A stretch of DNA of 64,000 nt from Acidobacteriota bacterium (lineage in GTDB: Bacteria; Acidobacteriota; Vicinamibacteria; Vicinamibacterales; CAVVIG01): contig QHWB01000031.1 in NCBI GenBank assembly GCA_003222395.1, positions 250,501-314,500 of the forward strand, written 5' to 3'. The position numbers and the translations under genes are program-made. Below the pieces are notes generated by a model, which saw nothing but the letters and a program-made list of their open reading frames with translations, was not told the origin of the DNA and ran no database searches. This document shows, in pieces, positions 16,870 through 32,298 of this stretch. Numbering within the stretch: the stretch's first letter is position 1; each line of letters opens with the position of its first letter.

Positions 16870-18024
16870 TCACACGGCACGCCTCAGCGGCTGCTCGAGC
16901 GCCCGCTCCAGAACGCGCGCCACAACTCGCCGAGCGTCGAAGTGCTCCTCGACCAGCGCGCGAGCCTGGCGGCAATGGTATTCGTAGTCAGCTTCGGCGG
17001 CGCAGAGAGCGGCGGCGGCTTCGTCGAGACTGCGGAATCGGAACAGGCCTTCGCCGTCGGGAAGAAATTTGCTGCGGCCCGTGTGTTGGACGACCGCCGG
17101 CCTGCCGCTGGCCAGATAGCACAGGGTCCGGTCGCTGATCCACGCAGTCTCCAGCCTCACGTACGCCGGTTTCGCGCAGCTGAACTCGCCGCGCGATCGC
17201 TGAATGTAAGCGCGGTACGCTTCGAGAGTCGAGCTGACGTCCCACGCTTCACGCACGCGCCACCCGTGCGGCTCCATGAGCTGGCGGCATTCGTCGAAGC
17301 ACTGGGCCAGGCACACGGCGACCTCCAACCGGACGCGCGCCCGCGCAGGCAGCTCGAGATAATCGAGGAAGGCAACGCGCTTCTCGTTCCAGAACGTCGT
17401 GCCATCGTGCTCGAATTTGCCGCCCCACCAGTGCGCCACGGTCGTGTATGCAGCCGCGCCCTCGGGCGGCATTGCCGGCCATTCCGGCAGAAACACCGGA
17501 ACCGGCGTGTAGATCCATTGCAACCCGCAATCCGGGAACAGTGCCCGCGGCGTGCCGACGGTTTCGCCAATGGTGAAGTAGACGTCATGCGGCGCAACCT
17601 TGACGCTGCCGTTCGTCATCCACGTCTGCAGCAGTCCGGGATCGGTATCAATCAGCGCGGAGCGGCGGAACCGCCGCACGACCTCGGCCGGCAACGAGTG
17701 CCAGAGATTCAGGAGGAGATCGGCCTGTGCGGCGGTCTCGAAATCGAGAGCTCCGGTCGCGACGTCGCCCGGCGGCGCCGCGCCCGCGGGCGTCGTGAAG
17801 GCGAGAGCGTTCGCGAGGTCCCAGCGGGCCAGGCGCTCTCGCAGGATCGTGACATTTCGTCGCGTCTCCTCCACCGGATCCGCAGGATCAATCTGTTCGA
17901 GCCAGATCACGTCGCAGCCAAGCGCTCGAAGCCCGAGCGCCCACTGGAGATATACCCAGAAATGGCCGCCGCCGTTCGGGTAAGCGATGGTATGCGCCGG
18001 TGCGAGGCAAATCGTGAGAGTCAT
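16870..18024 (-). CDS. GT-B-like glycosyltransferase, paralog 1
   Basis: This 384-residue protein is one of three paralogs in the cluster. The N-terminus has YPNGGGHFWVY (15-25), a glycine loop typical of a Rossmann-like sugar-nucleotide fold. The C-terminal half has RGEFSCAK (278-285), WISDRTLCYLASGRP (near 295-309) and HTGRSKFLPDGEGLFRF, as in CgeB-like and family-1-type glycosyltransferases. The acceptor and donor are unknown. The start overlaps the previous gene by 4 nt. It is the last gene of the nine-gene minus-strand cluster. Assignment to a glycosyltransferase rests on the C-terminal motif pattern; confidence in the exact family is moderate. Confidence 0.7.
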   Translation of the reverse strand: MTLTICLAPAHTIAYPNGGGHFWVYLQWALGLRALGCDVIWLEQIDPADPVEETRRNVTILRERLARWDLANALAFTTPAGAAPPGDVATGALDFETAAQADLLLNLWHSLPAEVVRRFRRSALIDTDPGLLQTWMTNGSVKVAPHDVYFTIGETVGTPRALFPDCGLQWIYTPVPVFLPEWPAMPPEGAAAYTTVAHWWGGKFEHDGTTFWNEKRVAFLDYLELPARARVRLEVAVCLAQCFDECRQLMEPHGWRVREAWDVSSTLEAYRAYIQRSRGEFSCAKPAYVRLETAWISDRTLCYLASGRPAVVQHTGRSKFLPDGEGLFRFRSLDEAAAALCAAEADYEYHCRQARALVEEHFDARRVVARVLERALEQPLRRAV

Positions 18025-19268
18025 GAGTCGTTGTCACGCCGATCCGTCATACCCGGCGTGCCCGATTCTCCGCGGGCAGGAGCGGGTCGGTACTGGTCGG
18101 GAATCTTCGAACCGAGCGTTTCATCGAGCAGCCGGGCGACGATCTGCTCGGCATTGAAGTACGTTTCGGCGATTTCTCTCGCTGCCCGGCAGTGTCGCTC
18201 GTAATGAGTATTCACGGACTCGATGGCGGCCGCCGCTTCCTCGACCGTCGTAAACCGAAACAAACCTTCCCCGTTCGGTAAGTAGGTGCTCGGTCCCGTA
18301 TGCTGCACGATGGCGGGTTTTCCGCTGGCCAGATAGCATACGGTCCGGTCGCTGATCCAGGCGTTTTGAAAATCGATGCACGATGCCTTTGCACAACTGA
18401 ACTCACCACGCGACTGCTGGATGTACGAGCGATACGCCTCGGGGCTGCCGGCAGTGTCGCGCGAATGACGCACTCTCCACCCGTGTTCGTCGAGGCGCAC
18501 CCGGTCTTCCGAATCCTGTTCGGTCAGATACAGCGCGAGTTCGAGCGGCTGATGCGTGTGGCTGGGAAGGTCCAAAAACGGCAGAAAGGCGACGCGTTTC
18601 GTGTTTTCTCGCAGGACGGTCTTCCCGTTCTCCCTGACTTTGAGAAAGTCGGTGGTCAACCAGGTCGAGATTGTGGTGAACGCCTCCGCCTGCGGGATAT
18701 AGGTGAACGGCCAGAGATCGAGACAGATTGGCGGCCGGATATGAATCCACGGCAGTCCACAATCGGAGAACCGGGCGCCCGGTGTGCCGACCGTCTCGCC
18801 CGTGGTGAGGTAGTAATCATGTGGTTGCACGACAAGTTGACCGGTACTCATCCAGTACTGGAGCAGTCCGGGATCGATGTCGACGAGCGCCGTGCGCCGG
18901 ACGGAAGCGAGCAACCGAGGATCGATCGCGTAGTGAAAGTTCAGCAAGACATCGGCGCGTTGCAGTACCGCCTCTGCCTCGGCGGACGTTGATCCGGCGA
19001 ACTGGAGCGAACCGGTGCCGCCCGGGGCACGCTCGCGCGTGTAGAGCAGCGTTTTCCCTTCGAGGCCAAACCGTTTCATCCGTTCGAAGAACATCGCGAG
19101 CAGGACGTCCTCGCGCTGTGGATCCCGTTCGGGCTTGAGCTGCTCGAGCCAGTAGACCTCGCACCCGAGGCGCAGCAGGGCCTGCACGTACTGCATGTAC
19201 ACCCAGAAATGGCCGCCACCATCCGGGAAGTTGGCGACTTTGTACACCGAGATCACCACCGTGCTCAT
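18021..19268 (-). CDS. GT-B-like glycosyltransferase, paralog 2
   Basis: This 415-residue paralog of the proteins at 16870 and 22679 has FPDGGGHFWVY (14-24), RGEFSCAK (287-294), WISDRTVCYLASGKP (304-318) and LPNGEGLFRF (330-339). It carries about 30 extra residues at the C-terminus, rich in Pro, Gly and charged residues. It would transfer a sugar to a lipid- or metabolite-linked acceptor in the cytoplasm. The gene overlaps both neighbours by 4 nt (deacetylase upstream, paralog 1 downstream), showing tight translational coupling. Differences in the central region suggest that each paralog uses a different acceptor. Confidence 0.7.
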   Translation of the reverse strand: MSTVVISVYKVANFPDGGGHFWVYMQYVQALLRLGCEVYWLEQLKPERDPQREDVLLAMFFERMKRFGLEGKTLLYTRERAPGGTGSLQFAGSTSAEAEAVLQRADVLLNFHYAIDPRLLASVRRTALVDIDPGLLQYWMSTGQLVVQPHDYYLTTGETVGTPGARFSDCGLPWIHIRPPICLDLWPFTYIPQAEAFTTISTWLTTDFLKVRENGKTVLRENTKRVAFLPFLDLPSHTHQPLELALYLTEQDSEDRVRLDEHGWRVRHSRDTAGSPEAYRSYIQQSRGEFSCAKASCIDFQNAWISDRTVCYLASGKPAIVQHTGPSTYLPNGEGLFRFTTVEEAAAAIESVNTHYERHCRAAREIAETYFNAEQIVARLLDETLGSKIPDQYRPAPARGESGTPGMTDRRDNDS

Positions 19269-19948
19269 CTCGATCGCTCCGCCGCGTCGAGGCCTGTGGA
19301 GACGACGGACAACTCACGAAAGCCAATGAGACGAATTTCCTTTCCGTGAATCGCCTGGCGAACGCGGTCGTCGCACAGCGTCCGCAACTCCTCTTCCCGT
19401 TCAGCGGCGTAGCTCGAAGGGAATCCAGGCTCGATGTAGCCGGGGTGACAATTCAACTCGGTCACATCGCCGCAAACATCGGCTTCGAGCATGCGAATCA
19501 GACTCTCGACGCTGATCTGCTCGAGATGGGTTTCGCCGCCCCACTGGCCGTAGAATTTCGAAAAGTGGCGTGCCCGCGAACAACCCCGCACGTGCACGCC
19601 GATCCGTCGCGACCAGACCAGTACGTGGGGCAGCACACGCGGGTCGTAATGCACGTCGTGGTGCGAATCCGCGTGAGTAGGAGCGCCGCCAACCAGTTCC
19701 AGAAAGCGGTCGTACTGCCGTTCGAGCTCCGCGGGGACGCGGTCGGCGTGGTTCGGATCCAGTTCGAGATGGATGCCGACGCTCAATGTCTTGTACTCAC
19801 GCGCGAGGCTGCCCGCCTCATCGCCTGCCGGTCTATCGACCATGAGGCTCGTGCTGGTGAGGATGCCCTCGCAGTGAGCCTGGATGATCCCGCGATTGAT
19901 TCCGCTCGTAATGCCGAAATCGTCGGCGGTCACGATGAGCCACTTCAT
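19265..19948 (-). CDS. ChbG/YdjC-like carbohydrate deacetylase
   Basis: This 227-residue protein belongs to the YdjC/ChbG family, metal-dependent enzymes that remove an acetyl group from N-acetylglucosamine-type sugars. The metal-binding TADDFG (residues 7-12), HADSHHDVHYD and NCHPGYIEPGF motifs are all present. In this cluster it would expose an amine on a sugar made by the neighbouring glycosyltransferases, as in aminoglycoside or glycolipid routes. It sits 6 nt after the kinase gene and overlaps glycosyltransferase paralog 2 by 4 nt. The length is a little shorter than ChbG itself. Confidence 0.85.
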   Translation of the reverse strand: MKWLIVTADDFGITSGINRGIIQAHCEGILTSTSLMVDRPAGDEAGSLAREYKTLSVGIHLELDPNHADRVPAELERQYDRFLELVGGAPTHADSHHDVHYDPRVLPHVLVWSRRIGVHVRGCSRARHFSKFYGQWGGETHLEQISVESLIRMLEADVCGDVTELNCHPGYIEPGFPSSYAAEREEELRTLCDDRVRQAIHGKEIRLIGFRELSVVSTGLDAAERSR

Positions 19949-19954
19949 GGGCCT

Positions 19955-21025
19955 TCACTCCTCCAGCGCCGGACGGAGAGCCGCGAAGTAGCGATCCCAA
20001 TCGATGATGTCATTGACCGCCCACTCGGCGTCATCGTGCAGCAGCGCCATCGCGGCAAAGAGCAGACAGTGCACATACCGCGAGCTCTCGGCGGTGTGGA
20101 ACAGCAGGTTCAGCTCTTCGAGTCCCGGCAACTGCCAGCCTGCACGCGCCACCGTCTCGCGGTACTGCTGCACGATCCACAACCGCTCCTCGGGAGCGGA
20201 GCGATATAAGAATGTCGAGAGGTCGTAGCTGAACGGGCCCGCCCCGACGTGATCCCAGTCGATGAGCTGTGCGCGCACCGCTTCGCCGTCACCGGTCACG
20301 AACACGTTTTTGGGCCACAGATCGCCGTGCAAAAGAGTGTCGGGGCCACCCGCGTCCTTCATCAATTGGACGCGTCGCGGTGCATCCTCGACGAGCGCGT
20401 GGACACGCTGCAGCAGGCGCGTCCGGGCGCCAGCGAACTCCGGTGGCAGCCCCGACCGGACCGTCTCCAGCGCTTCCAGGGCGACGGCGGCATCGTTCAG
20501 GTTCGATGTGAAGAAGTGCACGCCGTGGTCGCGAGCGCGCCAACGGACTTCTGGAATCAGAGGGTGGTTCGCGGCGCGTGTGTGCAGCTCGGCGATCAGC
20601 GCGACGGCCGCGGAGAGACGTGCGGGTTCGCGCTGCGAGTTGAGCGTCTCGTCCCCGATGTCCTCGTACGCGTGCCACACCCAGCACCCGTCGCGTTCCG
20701 CCGCGCCCGCCAGCAGCCTCGGCGAGCGATCGGTGAGGCCGAGCGCAGGCAGCCACCGCTCCATCACGAGGCGATCCGTCTGTGCGATGGCCGGCTTCAG
20801 ACATTTGAGTACGATCGCGCGCGGTTCATCGCCGCCGATGCGCAGCCGGTAGACTCCGTTTTTGAGTCGTTTCAGGTCGAGCGTCGGCGCTGCCGAGACG
20901 ACCGTACCATTCAGCATCCGCTGGATGAGATCGCACAGCTCTCTCGCGCCGGGTTCTTGCCGCTCTTCGAGCGAGGGTCCGAGCTGCTCGTGTACATCAA
21001 AGCGTTCACCGATCTGACTCGCCAT
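19955..21025 (-). CDS. APH-type small-molecule kinase
   Basis: This 356-residue protein is an aminoglycoside phosphotransferase/choline kinase-like enzyme. The nucleotide-binding lobe contains IVLKCLKP (Lys near 74). The catalytic loop is LHGDLWPKNVF (HGD at 233-235, Asn240) and the metal-binding motif is LIDWDHVGAGPFSYDLS (Asp256). All catalytic residues are intact. Such kinases phosphorylate sugar or amino-alcohol hydroxyls. I prefer the ATG at 21025 to the in-frame ATG at 21064 because a strong GGAGAGGG site precedes it. The deacetylase gene follows after 6 nt. It may phosphorylate the cluster's sugar product as an intermediate or for self-protection. Confidence 0.85.
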   Translation of the reverse strand: MASQIGERFDVHEQLGPSLEERQEPGARELCDLIQRMLNGTVVSAAPTLDLKRLKNGVYRLRIGGDEPRAIVLKCLKPAIAQTDRLVMERWLPALGLTDRSPRLLAGAAERDGCWVWHAYEDIGDETLNSQREPARLSAAVALIAELHTRAANHPLIPEVRWRARDHGVHFFTSNLNDAAVALEALETVRSGLPPEFAGARTRLLQRVHALVEDAPRRVQLMKDAGGPDTLLHGDLWPKNVFVTGDGEAVRAQLIDWDHVGAGPFSYDLSTFLYRSAPEERLWIVQQYRETVARAGWQLPGLEELNLLFHTAESSRYVHCLLFAAMALLHDDAEWAVNDIIDWDRYFAALRPALEE

Positions 21026-21129
21026 CGTTCCCTCTCCTCGTTCGCGCATCACGGAGCTCGGCATCCGAGCGTCGATTGATGTCAGAGTGCCTCATTCACC
21101 AATATTTGCGGCGACTAAGGTCGTCGCCT

Positions 21130-22656
21130 TCATCCATCGCGGAGCGCAAAATCCAGCGCGGAAACGAAATCCCCGTTGCTGCCGTTCCGACCCAGCCCTA
21201 CCGGTTCGAGACGCTCGCACAGGGCGAGCACGGTATGGAGACGGAGATCCTCAGCGCCGACCAGGTGCTCGGGTTCCGCGTTGTAATGAGCGAGAAACGC
21301 GTCCCTGCACAACCGGTACGCCCCGGCATCGAAGCGGGCCAGTGTGAAGCACGCGAGATCGGCCGCGAAGCCCCCAAGGTCGAACCCCGGGTTGGACCGC
21401 CGGCAGTTCTCAAACCGGTAAAGATAGAACTTCCCGTCGATGCCGAAACGGATGCAGTCCCAGGCCATCGCACCGTGGATCGGACACCGGGGGCGCTGCA
21501 TTTTCAATGCAGAGCGCGCCTCGCTTGCATGAACGCACATACGAAACCGATTGACGAAATCTGATCCGAGGACGGCCCGGACGGTCGTCTCCGCTCGAGC
21601 AATCGCGCGTTCAAGGGTTTCGCCGCCATCGCGCTCCGTTCCGGGAACCGTGACGCGGCTCTTGTGCAGAGCCGAGAGCGTCTGCGCGACCCGTTCGGCG
21701 AAGTGCCGGACGGACCGGGGCCTGCGACGACACGCGAGATACTCCCAGAGATTCATCCATGGGTCGAAGTCGAACAGTACCAGGCGCGGCTCGCTCGTGA
21801 GCCGCGCCAGCGGCCGCGGGATTCGCATGCGCTCGGCGAACCCGGCGTCGTGGAGCCTGGCGGCCGCTTCGAGGTCCGCCCGCGCGCGGTCCTCCGCCCC
21901 ATGCAGCCTGCCCGTAACAACCCGCGTTTCGAACGTTTCGTCATCAGAGTGCGCAATGCGGACGGCGTATCGGTAACCGCTGTCACCAGCATCGGGGGAA
22001 ATCGCGTAGGCGGTACAGGACACGGCGCCGTTCCCGCCGTTGACGAACTCCGGAAGCACCGACAGTTCCTCTGCGATACGACGGGAGGACGGATCCTCGT
22101 GGTTGTGAGGGGCGAAACGGAACGATGAAGCCGGGATTGGATCTGGCGCGGGACGGTAACACAGAAGAATCGTCCGTCCCTCGTTTTCGAAGCTGACTAC
22201 CGTCGACACTGCGCAGTCGAGATTGCGGAATCCGCACCCGTGATTCTGATAATAGGCTTCTTCGTCCCGATATCTCTGGTATGTAACGGCAACATCGAAG
22301 CCGGGACCTTGATCGGTGATGGCGATCAACGCGCCCTCGCCGGTCAGCACCATTTCGACGGCAACTGTCTTCTCCGGATCGCCGCCGTTGCCGTGCTTCC
22401 AGGCATTGCCAAGCGCGTTCCTCAGCGGGATCAGCAAATCCGGCAGCAACTCCATCCGCGGCACCGATGCAAAACGATCGGAGAGCACGACCTCCAGGAA
22501 TGGAAACAGATCGTCACGACCGTGACCAGAGAGCCGGACCTGCACGTCGCGACGGGCAACGCGGCGGTCGGCCAGGTCGTTCACGGGCTCGGTCGGGTGA
22601 TGCGATGCATCGATCTCCGCCAGCAGCTCCGCGCGCGTGCGATCAAGCGCGATCAT
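21130..22656 (-). CDS. RsbW-like HATPase fused to a degenerate APH-like domain
   Basis: This 508-residue protein joins two parts. Residues 45-165 form a GHKL ATPase of the anti-sigma kinase type, with N-box NALGNAWKHGN (80-90), DQGPGFD (115-121) and CGFRNLD (141-147). Residues 200-490 are an APH/choline-kinase-like domain: the fold landmarks IHGAMAWDCIRF (393-404) and FYLYRFENCRRSNPGFDLG (about 410-428) are recognisable. The catalytic HGD is HGA (Ala396), the Asn position is Cys401 and the metal Asp is Arg414, so this half should be inactive. It may act as a sensor or scaffold controlling the active kinases. The gene is between a glycosyltransferase gene (22 nt) and the APH kinase gene (104 nt). 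Confidence 0.75.
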   Translation of the reverse strand: MIALDRTRAELLAEIDASHHPTEPVNDLADRRVARRDVQVRLSGHGRDDLFPFLEVVLSDRFASVPRMELLPDLLIPLRNALGNAWKHGNGGDPEKTVAVEMVLTGEGALIAITDQGPGFDVAVTYQRYRDEEAYYQNHGCGFRNLDCAVSTVVSFENEGRTILLCYRPAPDPIPASSFRFAPHNHEDPSSRRIAEELSVLPEFVNGGNGAVSCTAYAISPDAGDSGYRYAVRIAHSDDETFETRVVTGRLHGAEDRARADLEAAARLHDAGFAERMRIPRPLARLTSEPRLVLFDFDPWMNLWEYLACRRRPRSVRHFAERVAQTLSALHKSRVTVPGTERDGGETLERAIARAETTVRAVLGSDFVNRFRMCVHASEARSALKMQRPRCPIHGAMAWDCIRFGIDGKFYLYRFENCRRSNPGFDLGGFAADLACFTLARFDAGAYRLCRDAFLAHYNAEPEHLVGAEDLRLHTVLALCERLEPVGLGRNGSNGDFVSALDFALRDG

Positions 22657-22678: not shown

Positions 22679-23848
22679 TCAGTCGAGCGCCCGCTCGAAG
22701 ATCCGTCGCACCACGCGGCAGGCGTCGAAGTACTCCTCGGCGAGGGCTCTGGCGCGGCGGCTGTGCCGCTCGTAATCGGTCTCGAGGTCAGCGAATGCGC
22801 GGACTGCGTCGTCGATGCTCCGGAATCGAAAGATCCCCTCCGCCTCCGGCAAGAACCGGCTCGGACCGGTGTACTGGACGACGGCCGGCTTTCCGCTGGC
22901 GAGATAGCAGACGGTTCGGTTACTGGTCCAGCTGTTGACAAACTGCGGGCAGTACGACTTGACGCAGCTGAACTCACCTCGTGATTGCTGGAGGTAAGTC
23001 CGGTAATCGTCGGGCGTCGCGCTCACATCCCATGCCTCGCGAATTCCCCAACCGCGAGGCTCGAGACGCGCGCGCCATTCTTCGTAATGTTCACCGAGGC
23101 AGATGGCCAGCTCCAGCTGTGCCGTGGTACGTCCCGGGAGGTCAGCGTATTCGAGAAAAGCCGCCGACTTGTCGTTGGAGAAGGTCTCGCCCCGGAACTC
23201 GAATGTCCCGCCCCACCAGTGCGTCACCGTCGTGTACGGCGCTGTGGCCTCGGTGCGGATGACGGGCCATGCAGGCAGGAACACGGGCGTCGGCGTGTAG
23301 TGCCAGCGCAGCCCGCAATCCGGGAAACGTGCCAGGGGCGTTCCCACGGTTTCGCCAGTCGTGAAATAGATATCGTGCGGCGCCAGCTGGATGTCGCCTG
23401 TCGTCACCCACACCTGCACCAAACCCGGATCGGTATCGACGAAGATCTTCCGGCGGAAGCGGCTCACCACCGGCGCCGGCAGCGAGTGCCAGGTATTCAG
23501 GAGCACGTCGCCGGCCGCCGCAGCATCCAGATCGAGACAGCCTTGGGCCACGTCGGCGGGTACCGTCCCGCCATTCATCGAGAAGAGCGCCAACGCGTCG
23601 GTCAGGCCGTAGGAGTCCAGCCGCGCCTTCAGAATGGCGACGCACTCGCGCGGATCGGCACCCCGCCAGCGCCGGCGCCGCGCGGTCGAGTCGCCGGCGC
23701 CGTCGAGGTCCACTCCTTCCAGCCAGATCACCCGGCAGCCGAGCTCTCGCAGCGCGAGACCCCAGTTCAGGTATTCCCAGAAGTGGCCGCCTCCCCGCGG
23801 GTAGCCGATGGTCGGCGCGGGGACGAGGCACACAGTTGTAATACTCAC
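22679..23848 (-). CDS. GT-B-like glycosyltransferase, paralog 3
   Basis: This 389-residue paralog has YPRGGGHFWEYLNWGLALREL near its start, then RGEFSCVK, WTSNRTVCYLASGKP and LPEAEGIFRF in the C-terminal half. I chose the GTG at 23848: it makes a 4-nt GTGA overlap with the upstream gene as at other junctions here, has GGAGC 5 nt upstream, and gives an N-terminus like the other two paralogs. An ATG at 23860 is the alternative. It probably transfers a sugar in the same pathway as its paralogs. Together with paralog 1 it keeps a conserved DTDPG.. segment and APHD.YFT.GETVGTP in the middle of the protein. Confidence 0.7.
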   Translation of the reverse strand: MSITTVCLVPAPTIGYPRGGGHFWEYLNWGLALRELGCRVIWLEGVDLDGAGDSTARRRRWRGADPRECVAILKARLDSYGLTDALALFSMNGGTVPADVAQGCLDLDAAAAGDVLLNTWHSLPAPVVSRFRRKIFVDTDPGLVQVWVTTGDIQLAPHDIYFTTGETVGTPLARFPDCGLRWHYTPTPVFLPAWPVIRTEATAPYTTVTHWWGGTFEFRGETFSNDKSAAFLEYADLPGRTTAQLELAICLGEHYEEWRARLEPRGWGIREAWDVSATPDDYRTYLQQSRGEFSCVKSYCPQFVNSWTSNRTVCYLASGKPAVVQYTGPSRFLPEAEGIFRFRSIDDAVRAFADLETDYERHSRRARALAEEYFDACRVVRRIFERALD

Positions 23849-26607
23849 TGGTTGCTCCATCCAAGCCGCTCGAGGGCGTCGTCCAGCTCGATGACGTACG
23901 GTTGGAGAGCGCTCATCGATGTATGAGCCCAATCGTCCGCCAGATTGAGCACCTCCCACGACATGCCCGCCAGCGCACGGAATGCCGATCCGCAAACCGC
24001 AAGTCGTTGAACCGTTTCGACGGACGCGTCAGGCCAGCGGTCTCGAACAATCGACCAGTAAGTCGACAGGTCCGGATTGGCGGACAGCCGGTTGGAGAGC
24101 AATGACTGCTGCGCCAGATCCGCGGCCGGTATGCCCCAACCCGCCTCCTCCCAGTCGAAGACGAGCACACGACTGTGACCGTTATCCGATCGCATCAGCA
24201 GGTTCTTCGAGTTGAAGTCGCCGTGCACCAGCGTGCGCGGCAGCCCGGCACATATTGCGTCCATCCGGTCCCAACGAGCGGCGACGTCGCCGAGGTGCGC
24301 GTGAAGTGCTTCCAGCGTGTCGACGTCAACCGCCGTCAGGACGGGGTTCGCCAGGTGTTGCGAAATGAAGGCGCACGTCCCCTGCAAAAGCTCCCGATAT
24401 CGCCCCGGCCCCGCATCGGGCAGAAGCCCGTTCACCGGCACATCGGCGACTGAAGAGTGGAGCCGTCCCAGCCAGCGCGCCGCTTCGGCCCGATGTCCGG
24501 CCGAGAGACGTGAGTACGTCTCGCCCGTCGCGAGGTCCATGAAAATCCAACAATGTTCGCCGTCCGGCTCCTCGAAGAACCCGTGGTAGCCCAGCGACGC
24601 GACAGCCGCGCGGGGGAGAATCTGCTCGTTGACCGCACGCTCCACGACACCGCCGCGCTTCCCGCACCGTTTGGCGACGATGGCCGGACGACCGGCCATT
24701 TCGAGCCGGTAGATCTTGTTCTTCTGTCTGCGGACTCGTAAGGGGATCACCTGGAGCGGCGCAGCGTCCGGGTGGATTTGACACCAGGCTTGAGCGGCCG
24801 GGTGCGCCATGACATTCGACCGGCGCGTGGTGACGATGGCGGGCGCCGCTGGAACCACAGTCGTGGCTCCCCGGCTCGGAACATCGTTCACGATGCGGCC
24901 GTTCTCGATTCCAACGAGCGTCCTGCATCCCTCCAGCATGCTCGATCGATGCGTGATCACGAGCACGGTGCGTCCGCGCATGAGCCGGCGCATGGTGCGG
25001 AGAATTGCCGATTCCGACTCGGTATCGACGGCGCTCGTCGGCTCGTCGAGGATGAGCACCGGGCTGTCCTGCACGAACGCGCGGGCGAGGGCGATGCGCT
25101 GGCGCTGGCCGCCTGAGAGCTGAAGCCCGCGTTCGCCGACCTCGGTGTCGTAGCCGCGCGGGAACGCCGTGATGAAATCGTGGGCGTTCGCGACCTGCGC
25201 CGCTGCCACGATCTCGTCGCGCCCCACGCCCTTTTTGCCGTAGGCGATGTTCTCCGCAATGGTTGTGGAGAACAGCACCGGCTCCTGCAGCACGACAGCG
25301 AATTGCCGGCGGAGGTCCGCCAGCTTGTAGTCGCGAAGATCGATCCCGTCGAGCAGAATGCAGCCGTCGGTCGGGTCGTAGAAGCGCATGAGCAGGTTGA
25401 TCAGCGTGGTCTTGCCGGCGCCCGATGCGCCAACGATTCCCAAACGCGTGCCCGGCTCGATCTCGAACGACACATCGTGCAGGACGGCACGATCGTCGGC
25501 GTAACCGAAGCAGACATTTCGGAACTCGATCTTCCCGACCGCCCGCGCGAGTGGCCGGGCGTCCGGGCGCTCTTCGACATCGGCAGGGTAATCGAGCAGC
25601 GCGAAGGCGCGCTCGATGCTGGCCAGATAGCCCTGCACCGTCGCCACTTTCCGGCTGATGGTCTTGACCGGATCGTAGAGCTTGGTGAGGTAGCCCATGA
25701 TCAGCAACAGGTTTCCCAGTGACAGCGTCGCCGATCGAACGTGAGCGATGCCGACGAAGAGGACAGCCGCTGTCCCCGCGCCGGTCGCCAGCCCGACCAG
25801 AACGCTGAAGTGACCCTCAGCCGCGGCGAGTTGGACCCGGCGCCGCACTCCCTCCTGGGAACGGCGCATGAACCGGTCGGTTTCGTGATCCTCCTGCGCG
25901 AATGCCTTCACGACACGGAGTGCGCCAAGCACTTCGTGGACGATGGCCATTGCCGCGCTCTCGAGCTTCTTGACATCAGTCGACTGGGAGCGGAGGCGTG
26001 CCCGATAGGTCTGCGTCACCAGCAGGATCGGCGGCGAGATCGCGAGAGCGACGAGCGTCAGGCGCCAGTCCATCCGGATCATCACGTAGATCATGGAGGC
26101 CAGCATGGCGAAGGCGCTGACCGAGGGCATGAAGCCGTCGATCACCAGCGATCGCATCGCCTGGGCGTCGTTCTGGATCCGATACAGCGAATCCGCCGTA
26201 CCGGTGGTGTCGTGGTACGAGAGCGAGAGCCGCTGCAGCTGGCGGAAGATTCGATCGCGAAAATCGACGACGAGCCGCTCGCCGGCGACGGCGGTCAGGT
26301 ACCGGGTCGCGAGCGCCTGCACCTGAGTGAGAATCGCGATCAGGATTGTCAGCACCGCGGCGAATGTGAGCAGGAGCGTCGGCGTGCGCGAAAGCGCCGC
26401 CGGCACGAGGGCGTCGAGAAAGCGCGGCAGCGGACGCGACCCCAGCACGCTGTCGACGGCAATCTTCAGCGGCAGCGGCGTGAGCAGCGCCAGGGGCGTC
26501 GCAAGCAATCCGATCGCGAACAGCGCGGTAATCGACACCCATGACGAGAGCGCATGGCTCGCCAGGCGTCGGTATAGCGCGAAGTCGCCGTAGCTGGCTC
26601 TCGTCAT
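23845..26607 (-). CDS. ABC exporter fused to an APH-type kinase
   Basis: This 920-residue protein is a type IV ABC half-exporter with an extra enzyme domain. Membrane segments lie near 22-43, 76-98, 158-198 and 268-310. The ATPase (about 359-585) has Walker A GASGAGKT (393-400), signature LSGGQ (497-501), Walker B VLILDEP (517-523) and the H-loop His553. Residues 600-920 form a full APH/choline-kinase domain with VHGDFNSKNLL (HGD 795-797, Asn802) and VFDWEEAGWGIPAADLA (Asp818). All motifs of both parts are intact. An AGGAAG site precedes the ATG. It could phosphorylate a small molecule at the membrane and couple this to export. The stop overlaps the next gene by 4 nt. Confidence 0.88.
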   Translation of the reverse strand: MTRASYGDFALYRRLASHALSSWVSITALFAIGLLATPLALLTPLPLKIAVDSVLGSRPLPRFLDALVPAALSRTPTLLLTFAAVLTILIAILTQVQALATRYLTAVAGERLVVDFRDRIFRQLQRLSLSYHDTTGTADSLYRIQNDAQAMRSLVIDGFMPSVSAFAMLASMIYVMIRMDWRLTLVALAISPPILLVTQTYRARLRSQSTDVKKLESAAMAIVHEVLGALRVVKAFAQEDHETDRFMRRSQEGVRRRVQLAAAEGHFSVLVGLATGAGTAAVLFVGIAHVRSATLSLGNLLLIMGYLTKLYDPVKTISRKVATVQGYLASIERAFALLDYPADVEERPDARPLARAVGKIEFRNVCFGYADDRAVLHDVSFEIEPGTRLGIVGASGAGKTTLINLLMRFYDPTDGCILLDGIDLRDYKLADLRRQFAVVLQEPVLFSTTIAENIAYGKKGVGRDEIVAAAQVANAHDFITAFPRGYDTEVGERGLQLSGGQRQRIALARAFVQDSPVLILDEPTSAVDTESESAILRTMRRLMRGRTVLVITHRSSMLEGCRTLVGIENGRIVNDVPSRGATTVVPAAPAIVTTRRSNVMAHPAAQAWCQIHPDAAPLQVIPLRVRRQKNKIYRLEMAGRPAIVAKRCGKRGGVVERAVNEQILPRAAVASLGYHGFFEEPDGEHCWIFMDLATGETYSRLSAGHRAEAARWLGRLHSSVADVPVNGLLPDAGPGRYRELLQGTCAFISQHLANPVLTAVDVDTLEALHAHLGDVAARWDRMDAICAGLPRTLVHGDFNSKNLLMRSDNGHSRVLVFDWEEAGWGIPAADLAQQSLLSNRLSANPDLSTYWSIVRDRWPDASVETVQRLAVCGSAFRALAGMSWEVLNLADDWAHTSMSALQPYVIELDDALERLGWSNQ

Positions 26608-29276: not shown

Positions 29277-31829
29277 TCAGTCCGCGGTGACTGCCTGGTC
29301 CGAGACGCATCGTTCGATGACAGCGATCGCCAACCCGCAATGCCACGCCGCCCGCAGGGCCACAGACGCGGCCGCGATGCCGAGAACGGCTGCGGCGGGC
29401 CACGCCCGGTCGAATCCGGCTGCCACTGCAAGGGCCGTTGCCGCCATGGTGAGTACCGGCGTCACCGCCGACATCGTCGGCCACCAACGCGCCCGTATGA
29501 GCTGATTGCCGGCTCCGTGATCTTCAACCGCCATGATCAGACGCGCGGCGCCGAGCGTGCCGCATGCCACTTCCAGGTCCCAGCGATCCCAATCGCCGCC
29601 CCGCCGCACGGTGGATCCGACCGCGCGCAGCGTCTCCTCCACACTTCGGAGCCGCGCGTCGGGCGCCTCCCCTCGCTCGGTCCAGCGCGCGAAGGCCCGC
29701 GGCCGCGGGAAGGAAGGCCGAACCCCGCGGGCCGATGGGCACGATCCTGCCTCCAGCCGGCCGCACAGACGCGCAACGGGATGGAGCACGTGGAGCAGCG
29801 CCGTGAGAAGGCGCAGCGCGAATCGTCGGAGCCGGGCCTGACGACCGCAGAGCGTCGTCGGGAAGACGCCGCTCGTGCTCAACCACCCTTGAATGAAGGG
29901 CGCCATCGTGGTGAAGGCCAGCAGCGGCACCGCGAACAGGAGCGGGCGCCACAGGGTGCCGAGCGCCGAGATCACGGCGAGAACGGGTATCGCGAGGTAC
30001 CATTCGGGCATCAGCGATAGCGAATAGAGCGCGTGAGGCGCCGGGTGGTACAGCCGTTGGAACGGCGCTCCCCCCCACATGCCGTGATAGATACGTCCCC
30101 TTCGGAAATCGAGAGCCCGCGTGAGCCCGCGGCTGTAGATTCGACCCGCCCACGTGAGCTGCCCCGTCCCGTTGTATTTCTCCGGCCATTTCTTCTTGAG
30201 CAACGCCTCGGCCCGCCCATAGCCTCGCTGCTGCTTCCAATATGCGCGCACGGAGTTGCGGCGATGGTGCCAGACCATGGCGGTCGGGTGGAACCCGAGC
30301 GTCCAGCCGCATTCCTGAAGCTGCCAGCACACGTCCACGTCGTCGCCGGCGACGCGGAACTGCGGATCGAACCCGCCGATCGCTTCGAGGCACGCTTTGC
30401 GGAACGCCATGTTGCAGCCTGGGATGTGCTCCGCCTCGCGGTCGGAAAGGAGCACGTGCACGGGACCGCCCGGCGCATTGGCGACGCACTCTGCGATCGG
30501 CCCGTCATCCGGTGGCGGGATATTCGGTCCGCCCACGCCTGCATGGTTCGTGGCGCTGAAGGTTGACGCCAGGTATTTGAGCCAATGCGTGTCCGGACAC
30601 GCATCATCATCGATGTAGGCGATGATCTCGCCCGTGGCCGCGTGCAGGCCAGTATTGCGCGCGCTGCTCAGGCCGCGGTTTTCGGTCCGAATCAACCGAA
30701 CATCGTATTCGTCCACGATGTCCGCCGTACCGTCGGTCGAACCGTCGTCGACGACGATGACCTCATAGTTTGGATAATCCAGCCGCTTCAGACCGTCGAG
30801 GCAACCGCGGATCGTCCGTGATCCGTTGTATGTGCACACGACAACTGAGACGCGCGGCCACGGCAGATCCCAAAAGGGCACCTCGTCGAACCTCTCGCGA
30901 ACGGCAACGAGGGCGGGCTTGGGTCGACGCTCGCGGTCGGTGATGCCGAAGGCCCAGTCGTCCACTTCGGCTCCGGCCCGATGCCATTCGTCGGTCCAGG
31001 AGAAAACAAAAACGCCGGCACAGCCGCCGGCGAAGGCGGTTTCGATCTGCCAGTCGAGACTCTGGGCCTGCGCGAACTCGCCGTTGCGGAACGCGTCCAG
31101 TCCCAGCTCGCTGAGGATCAGCGGACGGTCCGCCGCAACATTCTGGAGGCGCGCGAGGTACGCATCGAGCGCCGACTGCCTTTCGAGATACACGTTGTAG
31201 CTGACGAGATCGAGGAACGGCAGCTCCAGGTATTCCGTCGAGGGGTAGTTCACGTACGTGACCAGTCCATCAGGGTCTTCATCTTTCACCGCGCGATACA
31301 GCCACTCGAGATAGCGTTCTACCCGGCGATGTCCGTACCACCTCGCAATGTGCGCCGGGATTTCGTTGCCGAGCGAGTAGGCCAGAAGCGCTGGATGGCC
31401 GACGCAGCGTCGTACCCGGTCGCGCAGCACGCGCTCAGGGTCAAGGTCCCTCCGCTTGTCGATGACGAAGCCGAGATACTGTTCGGCCGACAGCCCAACC
31501 ATCACCCAGAGTCCGTGTCGATGCGCGGCATCGAGCAATGAGCGCGGCGGCATCGTGTGAGGGATTCGAACACAGTTGATGCCGTTTTCCACCATCTGCG
31601 CGAAATCGCGCTCGATGGTGGCGAGGTCGTGATATTCGTTCCCGTCCGCGTCCGGCCGGAAGGCTCCGTAGGTCACGCCGCGCACATAGAGCTTGCGATC
31701 GCCGACGAAGAGAAACTTCCCTCGGATGGTCGGACGTGCTCCGTTCGACGGGCCGACTGACACAGACGACGGCGCCAGCGTACGAACCGGCACACGGAGT
31801 TCTGCCTGAGAATCTCCGGTCATCTGCAT
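29277..31829 (-). CDS. GH2-like TIM-barrel/GT2 glycosyltransferase membrane fusion
   Basis: This protein of about 850 residues has three parts. Residues 30-315 form a glycoside hydrolase TIM barrel of the GH2/GH5 kind, with acid/base Glu156 in SLGNEIP and nucleophile Glu241 in ILSELGLD. Residues 325-580 are a family-2 glycosyltransferase with SVVVCTYNG, VVDDGSTDGT (about 360-369), YIDDDA (405-410) and GDDVDVCWQ (495-503). The C-terminus has membrane segments near 610-660 and 795-840. It could build or remodel a membrane-linked sugar chain. The start is uncertain: ATGs at 31829, 31823 and 31946 are in frame and none has a ribosome site; I chose 31829 because the longer form overlaps a decayed copy. 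Confidence 0.8.
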   Translation of the reverse strand: MQMTGDSQAELRVPVRTLAPSSVSVGPSNGARPTIRGKFLFVGDRKLYVRGVTYGAFRPDADGNEYHDLATIERDFAQMVENGINCVRIPHTMPPRSLLDAAHRHGLWVMVGLSAEQYLGFVIDKRRDLDPERVLRDRVRRCVGHPALLAYSLGNEIPAHIARWYGHRRVERYLEWLYRAVKDEDPDGLVTYVNYPSTEYLELPFLDLVSYNVYLERQSALDAYLARLQNVAADRPLILSELGLDAFRNGEFAQAQSLDWQIETAFAGGCAGVFVFSWTDEWHRAGAEVDDWAFGITDRERRPKPALVAVRERFDEVPFWDLPWPRVSVVVCTYNGSRTIRGCLDGLKRLDYPNYEVIVVDDGSTDGTADIVDEYDVRLIRTENRGLSSARNTGLHAATGEIIAYIDDDACPDTHWLKYLASTFSATNHAGVGGPNIPPPDDGPIAECVANAPGGPVHVLLSDREAEHIPGCNMAFRKACLEAIGGFDPQFRVAGDDVDVCWQLQECGWTLGFHPTAMVWHHRRNSVRAYWKQQRGYGRAEALLKKKWPEKYNGTGQLTWAGRIYSRGLTRALDFRRGRIYHGMWGGAPFQRLYHPAPHALYSLSLMPEWYLAIPVLAVISALGTLWRPLLFAVPLLAFTTMAPFIQGWLSTSGVFPTTLCGRQARLRRFALRLLTALLHVLHPVARLCGRLEAGSCPSARGVRPSFPRPRAFARWTERGEAPDARLRSVEETLRAVGSTVRRGGDWDRWDLEVACGTLGAARLIMAVEDHGAGNQLIRARWWPTMSAVTPVLTMAATALAVAAGFDRAWPAAAVLGIAAASVALRAAWHCGLAIAVIERCVSDQAVTAD

Positions 31830-31887
31830 GGCGATCGGCGTGGCGAAATGCTGAAAGCGCAGCGCATGTTTCCGTTTTGCGGCGTCG

Positions 31888-32298
31888 CTAGAATCGGAAC
31901 AAGTAGCCGACCTTTGCGAATACCTGATGACGAGCCAAGCGGCCATACAGTCGCGCCGCCGGTTGCAGCCCGATGTTTCGCGCGCGCCTCAATCCGCAGT
32001 TGCGCGTGACGACCACGCGGAACCGGTACGCGCGCACGATTTCCGCCGTGCCGTCCGTTGATCCGTCGTCGACGACGATCACTTCGAAGTTGTCGTATTG
32101 AAGCTTTCGCAGTTGCTCGCGGCACGGTCGGACGGTCCGCGCGCCGTGGTCGCCGCAGACAACGACCGAACACGAAGGGCCGTGGGAAACGAACGTTCCG
32201 CGCACTGTCGGACGCACACCGCCGTAAATTGCGCGCATCGGCGGACACACGCCGGCGTGCATTCCGCGTGACGATCGTGACGTAGCTCGGTCCACCAT
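31888..32298 (-). pseudogene. Decayed GH/GT2 fusion gene fragment
   Basis: A 136-codon frame holds a collapsed copy of the neighbouring fusion protein. RPTVRGTFVSHGP matches the start of its GH domain (RPTIRGKFLFVGD) and then jumps straight to the GT2 part: CSVVVC, LRKLQYDNFEVIVVDDGST, NCGLRRARNIGLQ. The GT2 residues after RN.GL are missing. The end, VFAKVGYLFRF, instead resembles the last strand of an outer-membrane barrel. The TIM barrel and catalytic residues are lost, so it cannot be active. It looks like a recombination remnant at the upstream border of the cluster. Confidence 0.6.

Follow-up and report, generated by a model that had tools for sequence, protein, structure and literature searches.

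The kinases SpoIIAB and RsbW, whose domain belongs to the HATPase_c_2 type of GHKL domains, use the glutamate of the N-box as general base; this residue, placed four positions ahead of the Mg-binding asparagine, is needed for serine phosphorylation of the RsbW type, and in some histidine kinases the same position is occupied by an asparagine. Among proteins of the APH fold, LxmK is the class V lanthipeptide kinase (9DK1-3; NCBIfam model NF038156), in which residues Asp221, Gln226 and Asp241 are described, while RosX and TvaE keep a kinase fold devoid of the kinase residues and have a non-kinase role (PMC12291118). The bacterial spore kinases YtaA, CotS and YutH are APH-like spore coat proteins that include pseudokinase classes, and some of their genes are tightly linked to those of glycosyltransferases; no GHKL domain is mentioned for them in the passages considered (PMC2860764).

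The gene considered here lies in a stretch of 64,000 nucleotides of Acidobacteriota DNA (hereafter the window) and encodes, in a single polypeptide, a GHKL domain followed by an APH-fold domain (see Table 1). Its N-terminal half shares with SpoIIAB/RsbW the fold, Asn84 and the G1 and G2 boxes; it differs in that the whole family (11/11 members) lacks the N-box glutamate, in being joined to a kinase-fold domain, and in its surroundings, the 17 genes scanned in the window including neither a sigma factor nor a STAS gene. For the C-terminal half LxmK is the best NCBIfam match and a close one by fold (Z 19.8), and the HxDxxxxQ pattern of LxmK is common to the motif-intact relatives of this half; in the fusion protein, however, the catalytic Asp, the metal-binding Gln and Asp and the Lys of strand beta3 are all replaced. 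The likeness to RosX and TvaE ends at the RiPP context of the latter, there being no indication of a cyclase function for the fusion protein, and we know of no GHKL fusion of RosX or TvaE. No report of a GHKL-APH fusion was found in the literature searched (titles and starts of abstracts, subscription papers being largely outside). The fusion is a real, conserved and unusual architecture made of known folds: one polypeptide with two apparent pseudoenzymes and with family-specific invariants at the former kinase site, whose motif-intact relatives within the same operons provide built-in controls. The question of what an APH-fold pseudokinase binds, and whom it regulates, thus becomes directly testable in this family.

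The Fusion Gene and Its Cluster

Pfam recognises both halves of the fusion protein above the respective cut-offs: residues 76-164 as HATPase_c_2 (E 2.6e-07; 31.1 bits, cut-off 27.4) and residues 244-436 as APH (E 5.3e-06; 26.8 bits, cut-off 23.2). This bears out the fusion of a GHKL domain to an APH-fold domain proposed in a preliminary description of this DNA. The two live kinases placed nearby in that description are also found, one encoded by the next gene and the other fused to an MsbA-like exporter on the opposite flank, with a single gene (GTc) in between; both carry HGD, "live" meaning here motif-intact, as judged from sequence.

Table 1. Features of the fusion gene and of its surroundings (nucleotide positions in the window; residues are those of the fusion protein).
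Feature	Position	Strand	Basis or remark
GTa and GTb, relatives of GTc	16870..19268	(-)	glycosyltransferase-like by eye
YdjC-like protein	19265..19948	(-)	Pfam YdjC, E 7.4e-41
APH kinase with HGD, next gene	19955..21064	(-)	Pfam APH, E 1.6e-12
HATPase/pseudo-APH fusion gene (P0001)	21130..22656	(-)	508 aa, ATG start, internal stops 0
Predicted APH/LxmK-like pseudokinase domain, residues 190-508	21133..22089	(-)	AF2 model and fold matches
Arg414 at metal-Asp position	21415..21417	(-)	alignment
Cys401 at Asn/Gln metal-ligand position (HGDxxxxN/Q)	21454..21456	(-)	alignment
HGA replacing HGD, residues 394-396	21469..21477	(-)	alignment
Arg250 at beta3 Lys position	21907..21909	(-)	alignment
Linker, residues 172-189	22090..22143	(-)	length variable among aligned homologs
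SpoIIAB/RsbW-type GHKL domain, residues 36-171	22144..22551	(-)	Pfam, VIA-align, phmmer
N-box, residues 80-84	22405..22419	(-)	Asn84 kept; residue 80 (catalytic-Glu position) is Asn
GTc, 22 bp upstream of fusion gene	22679..23845	(-)	glycosyltransferase-like by eye and context; start codon unsettled
MsbA-like ABC exporter fused to APH kinase with HGD, opposite flank, with GTc in between	23845..26607	(-)
GH2-like TIM barrel and GT2	29277..31946	(-)	Pfam

The motifs of these kinases are kept in the cluster genes that were aligned. HGD, the Asn and the metal Asp occur without exception in the 24 aligned APH2-type genes (alignment A4: the window gene that follows the fusion gene and 23 of the 45 other APH2-labelled genes, selected for length), as do the H, D, N and metal Asp in all 15 aligned APH1-type kinases (alignment A5: the exporter-fused domain of the window and 14 of the 20 APH1-labelled genes, also selected for length). 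The HGD pattern is missing in two of the 45 APH2 genes (L076:2977 and L142:5247) and in four of the 20 APH1 genes (L070, L081, L121 and L134), that of L121, with HDD, being included in A5.

The glycosyltransferase-like proteins GTa, GTb and GTc form a family with no Pfam or NCBIfam match above cut-off, which spans 79 loci (from the best 80 of 103 stretches) in many phyla, cyanobacteria included; some of its matches lie in bins labelled as archaeal, which are possibly mis-binned. In 83 stretches, namely the 79 loci, three fetched regions and the window, many of them interrupted by contig ends, the cluster content is GT 80, ABC 57, APH2 46, GT2 43, APH1 41 and YdjC 36. A GT-like gene stands directly before the fusion gene in all five loci of this type with a visible upstream gene (the window, L085, L113, L121 and L125), and it overlaps the fusion gene by 4 to 8 bp in L113, L121 and L125. 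The fusion gene is an accessory of a widespread cluster of GT-like genes, MsbA-like exporter, APH kinases and YdjC, one that includes a GT-like family which the Pfam and NCBIfam models did not recognise.

Exporter and APH1 kinase carry a fusion label in 21 of the 79 loci and are two separate genes in others. In L085 (2966-3967) the fusion gene is followed by a gene for a protein that looks APH-like by eye, with HGE replacing HGD. PADLOC assigned the fusion protein and three neighbours to no defence family (E 0.01), an absence that does not exclude defence.

Distribution of the Family

With the fusion protein as query, no full-length homolog was found in viral contigs or on plasmids, and none of 23 pattern matches in genome contigs was confirmed. 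No other full-length homolog was present in 60 related genomes, where the 17 matches at E<=0.001 comprised the window's own and 16 confined to the N half, or in 396 genomes of the phylum, where the 10 matches at 1e-8 comprised nine confined to the N half and the window itself; with the C half as query, 6 of 162 genomes of the order matched, five of them weakly (E 0.001-0.01), the sixth being the window itself. The homologs came within reach only through the GT-like family next to the fusion gene, so these early negatives, obtained with a single diverged query, were misleading. A profile built from five glycosyltransferase-like proteins of the cluster (alignment A1) found relatives in 103 stretches, and of the 79 distinct loci among the best 80 of these, five carry long fusion homologs by tblastn: one in an Eisenbacteria MAG (L085), two in Verrucomicrobia MAGs (L113 and L121) and two in Acidobacteria MAGs (L125 and L105). 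Over their best-matching segment they share 42-51% identity with the window protein, and the proteins of L113 and L121 exceed it in length by 76 and 79 residues, mostly in the linker. A fusion unique to the window genome is rejected by these five loci.

Additional matches came from cluster-bearing genomes, in KSB1 (G556), in Eisenbacteria (G551, with a broken frame) and in Planctomycetota (G529, N half only). Eight of 48 such genomes, drawn from 50 of the 79 loci (L104 not among them), carry a match, the best E of each being 4.5e-41 or lower; the apparent enrichment over the window's phylum, where the only one of 396 genomes with the fusion is that of the window itself (E<=1e-20, three candidates scored per genome), compares mixed phyla with one phylum. 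The fusion occurs in 3 of 82 genomes in the phylum of G556, two of them new; among 47 genomes of the Eisenbacteria phylum it occurs in 2, neither of them new; the single match among 288 Verrucomicrobia genomes is the centre genome itself (five candidates scored per genome), and the one among 199 Planctomycetota genomes is the known N half (seven candidates scored per genome). The family, one of soil bacteria, is rare but conserved, its members coming from assemblies of Acidobacteria, Verrucomicrobia, Eisenbacteria and KSB1.

The APH-Fold Domain

The C half (residues 190-508) was modelled confidently by AF2, with a pLDDT of 83.6 and a pTM of 0.84; since six family rows were aligned together with five APH relatives encoded in the same loci (HGD in four, HGS in one), the model leans towards the APH fold. 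The top Foldseek match is PsiK (E 2.9e-08); by VIA-align PsiK (Z 20.5, 4.9 A, 294 residues) and LxmK (Z 19.8, 4.2 A, 284 residues) are tied, with lower values for glucosamine kinase (Z 18.9, 3.3 A, 272 residues) and TvaE (Z 16.0, 4.3 A, 275 residues). The best 50 matches range from Z 20.5 to 15.4 and are nearly all kinases of the bilobal APH fold, in agreement with the fold originally assigned to this half.

Recognition by sequence profiles is more uneven. A profile of the C family (A3) has PDB matches to 4-hydroxytryptamine kinase (E 0.0014) and to LxmK (E 0.004), and the LxmK model NF038156 is matched by all 11 rows of alignment A7 at E<=0.01, the window protein scoring 20.1 bits as a whole and 22.1 bits over the C half, far below the cut-off of 315. 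Pfam APH is found at E<=0.1 in only three of six family members, with no match in the divergent L152, L153 and P0002, and hhalign relates the C family only weakly to either APH family of the cluster (probability 0.2 and 3.9), the second of these matches being in the expected register, with HGA on HGD, C on N and R on D. The register of HGA, Cys401 and Arg414 follows from the alignment to the motif-intact relatives and from the LxmK and PsiK matches of the profile, and it confirms the three substitutions (HGA, Cys at the Asn position, Arg at the metal Asp) first read from the sequence.

In ten C halves, which are not independent because L113/L121 and L162/L163 are close pairs, the position of the catalytic Asp of HxD is occupied by Ala (7), Ser (2) or Gln (1) and that of the metal Asp (DxD/DFG) by Arg (9) or Gly (1), whereas both are Asp in the four motif-intact relatives, themselves two pairs of near-copies. 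The Asn/Gln metal-ligand position holds Cys (6), Ser (2), Asn (1) or Ala (1) against Gln in the four relatives, L152 alone retaining the Asn. The beta3 Lys, present in the four relatives, is Arg in all ten; in L153 a Lys lies two residues before this position, making the register arguable there. The possibility that homologs retain HGD elsewhere is rejected, none of the ten C halves having an Asp at the catalytic or the metal position. Arg250, Trp399, Cys418 and Arg419 are instead invariant in all ten, Trp399 and Arg419 being absent from the four motif-intact relatives.

Such family-specific invariants at a former active site might also be expected if the C half had taken up a non-kinase reaction on the APH scaffold, as in the RosX/TvaE AviCys cyclases, with a new site made of the invariant Trp399, Cys418 and Arg419 and, in most members, Cys401. 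This is the strongest rival to a regulatory role, since RosX, devoid of the kinase residues, is nevertheless a cyclase (PMC12291118). The presence of TvaE among the fold matches is consistent with it, as is the standing of LxmK, an enzyme of lanthipeptide synthesis, as closest NCBIfam match and one of the top two PDB matches by both profile and fold. On the other hand, the cluster genes scanned (Pfam and NCBIfam; small precursor ORFs lay outside the scan) include neither a lyase nor any further gene of RiPP synthesis, four of the ten members have N, S or A in place of Cys401, and the GHKL fusion is unlike RosX, so that this explanation appears unlikely.

The GHKL Domain

The full-length AF2 model is poor (mean pLDDT 51.9; below 50 for residues 297-508), and therefore only its N part and N-lobe were used. 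The N part superposes on SpoIIAB (1tid) with a VIA-align Z of 11.8 (2.4 A, 121 residues) and on RsbW with a Z of 11.4, and the N half matches SpoIIAB in sequence at E 0.009 (phmmer). According to the alignment, the nucleotide-binding boxes Asn84, Asp115-x-Gly-x-Gly and Gly140-x-Gly142 are present in all 11 family members, and the position of the N-box Glu (residue 80) is Lys in six, Asn in four and His in one. Other HATPase relatives from the searches of the related and phylum genomes served as controls (25 rows from 26 loci, L018 having no row); several of them are near-copies from one genus (e.g., L020 and L023-L026), and some are not stand-alone domains. In 24 of the 25 rows this Glu is present; the sole exception, L010, has Asn and looks by eye like a histidine kinase. 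An ordinary, live RsbW is rejected on this comparison (0/11 against 24/25). On the basis of these residues the N half likely binds nucleotide and probably lacks catalysis of the RsbW type.

The preliminary description had taken the N half for a live ATPase, a claim of which the conserved nucleotide boxes are all that stands, the label itself being unsupported because the N-box Glu is missing throughout the family. An Asn or Lys at this position is, however, no proof of an inactive ATPase, and the N half could still have ATPase or kinase activity by way of an unusual base, the C half acting as its sensor, as that description would have it. Every nucleotide-binding box examined is intact in all 11 members and an Asn replaces the Glu in the histidine-kinase-like L010, in keeping with such activity; the variation of the N-box position among Asn, Lys and His is unlike a catalytic residue, and we consider this version distinctly unlikely.

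Quite improbable, in our judgement, is a partner-switching role in which the N half would bind a sigma factor or a STAS protein and the pseudo-APH half would serve as sensor. The fold and the sequence match to SpoIIAB/RsbW speak for it, but the Pfam scan of the 17 window genes that gave no sigma factor or STAS protein gave no PP2C phosphatase either, and the Glu required for RsbW-type Ser phosphorylation is absent from all members.

Conserved Change or Decay

Taken together, the residues of the two domains make a double pseudoenzyme the better reading of the fusion protein, both halves lacking those expected for their chemistry. By a simple count method, with no formal test, dN/dS between L113 and L121 is 0.29 for the N half, 0.30 for the C half, 0.44 for the linker and 0.42 overall, and it is about 0.35 between L162 and L163, values that point to purifying selection. 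The loss of the kinase residues is more than chance, since both Asp are missing in all ten C halves and dN/dS is below 0.5 in the pairs tested, and it reads as a conserved change rather than decay. That the fusion is a degenerating relic without function, as its sporadic distribution, remnants and frameshifts might suggest, is very improbable given these ratios and the identical losses and new invariants found across several phyla.

A Possible Regulatory Role

We tentatively prefer, at somewhat less than an even chance, to regard the fusion protein as regulating or scaffolding the neighbouring kinases or glycosyltransferases in response to a ligand and without catalysis of its own; sensor or allosteric regulator is the likeliest putative role. 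The N half would bind ATP or ADP without kinase action of the RsbW type. In the pocket of the pseudo-APH half the conserved Arg250, Arg414 and Arg419, with Trp399, may replace the Lys/Asp/metal machinery, the Arg at the metal position possibly substituting for the metal and holding a phosphate; this half could thereby bind a phosphorylated ligand (a nucleotide, a sugar phosphate or an NDP-sugar), perhaps without metal. The fusion protein would then hold or switch the APH kinases or glycosyltransferases of an operon presumably devoted to the assembly and export of an envelope glycan or glycolipid. Functionally, the closest precedent is offered by the APH-like kinases and pseudokinases of the spore coat, some of them encoded beside glycosyltransferases (PMC2860764).

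The reading may be carried further: both modules would have given up their old chemistry to form together a metal-independent sensor of phospho-ligands, or a new enzyme, governing live and dead APH-fold proteins in the glycan-export operons of several phyla. In this full extent it is doubtful.

A Second Operon Type, Split Halves, and Gene Loss

The distant members of the family belong to a second operon type, near RtcB, in which they stand among exporters, APH-fold proteins and GT4s. The order in L167 is ABC, ABC, APH, APH, fusion, GT4, GT4, APH, histidine kinase, response regulator, unknown gene and RtcB, the labels deriving from similarity to L159, from Pfam (RtcB, the first GT4, APH and the histidine kinase) or from inspection by eye (the response regulator and the second GT). 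Further APH-fold proteins of L167, L168, L159 and L157 have HGA, HGS or HGT replacing HGD and retain the metal Asp (LVDFD, LIDFD, LIDLD); to judge from these motifs, the second operon type apparently holds a whole group of kinases that are partly dead.

The N half of G529, which falls short of the Pfam cut-off for HATPase, is encoded by a gene of its own next to an APH-like gene with HGD, which suggests that GHKL and APH-type modules cooperate even when they are not fused.

The fusion gene is dispensable and sometimes lost, since only about 30 codons of it, a 5' remnant, are left in L117, it is absent from G010, where a deletion took most of GTc, and L125 and L153 have a broken frame, for which misassembly is another possible cause. 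At the G010 locus (L058:10872-11064) two fragments of GTc lie between the exporter-APH gene and the APH gene, as the footprint of a deletion at the place that the fusion gene occupies in the window. In L117 (11250-13486) the remnant follows a GT-like gene and is itself followed by an ORF which, by eye, resembles a tyrosine recombinase.
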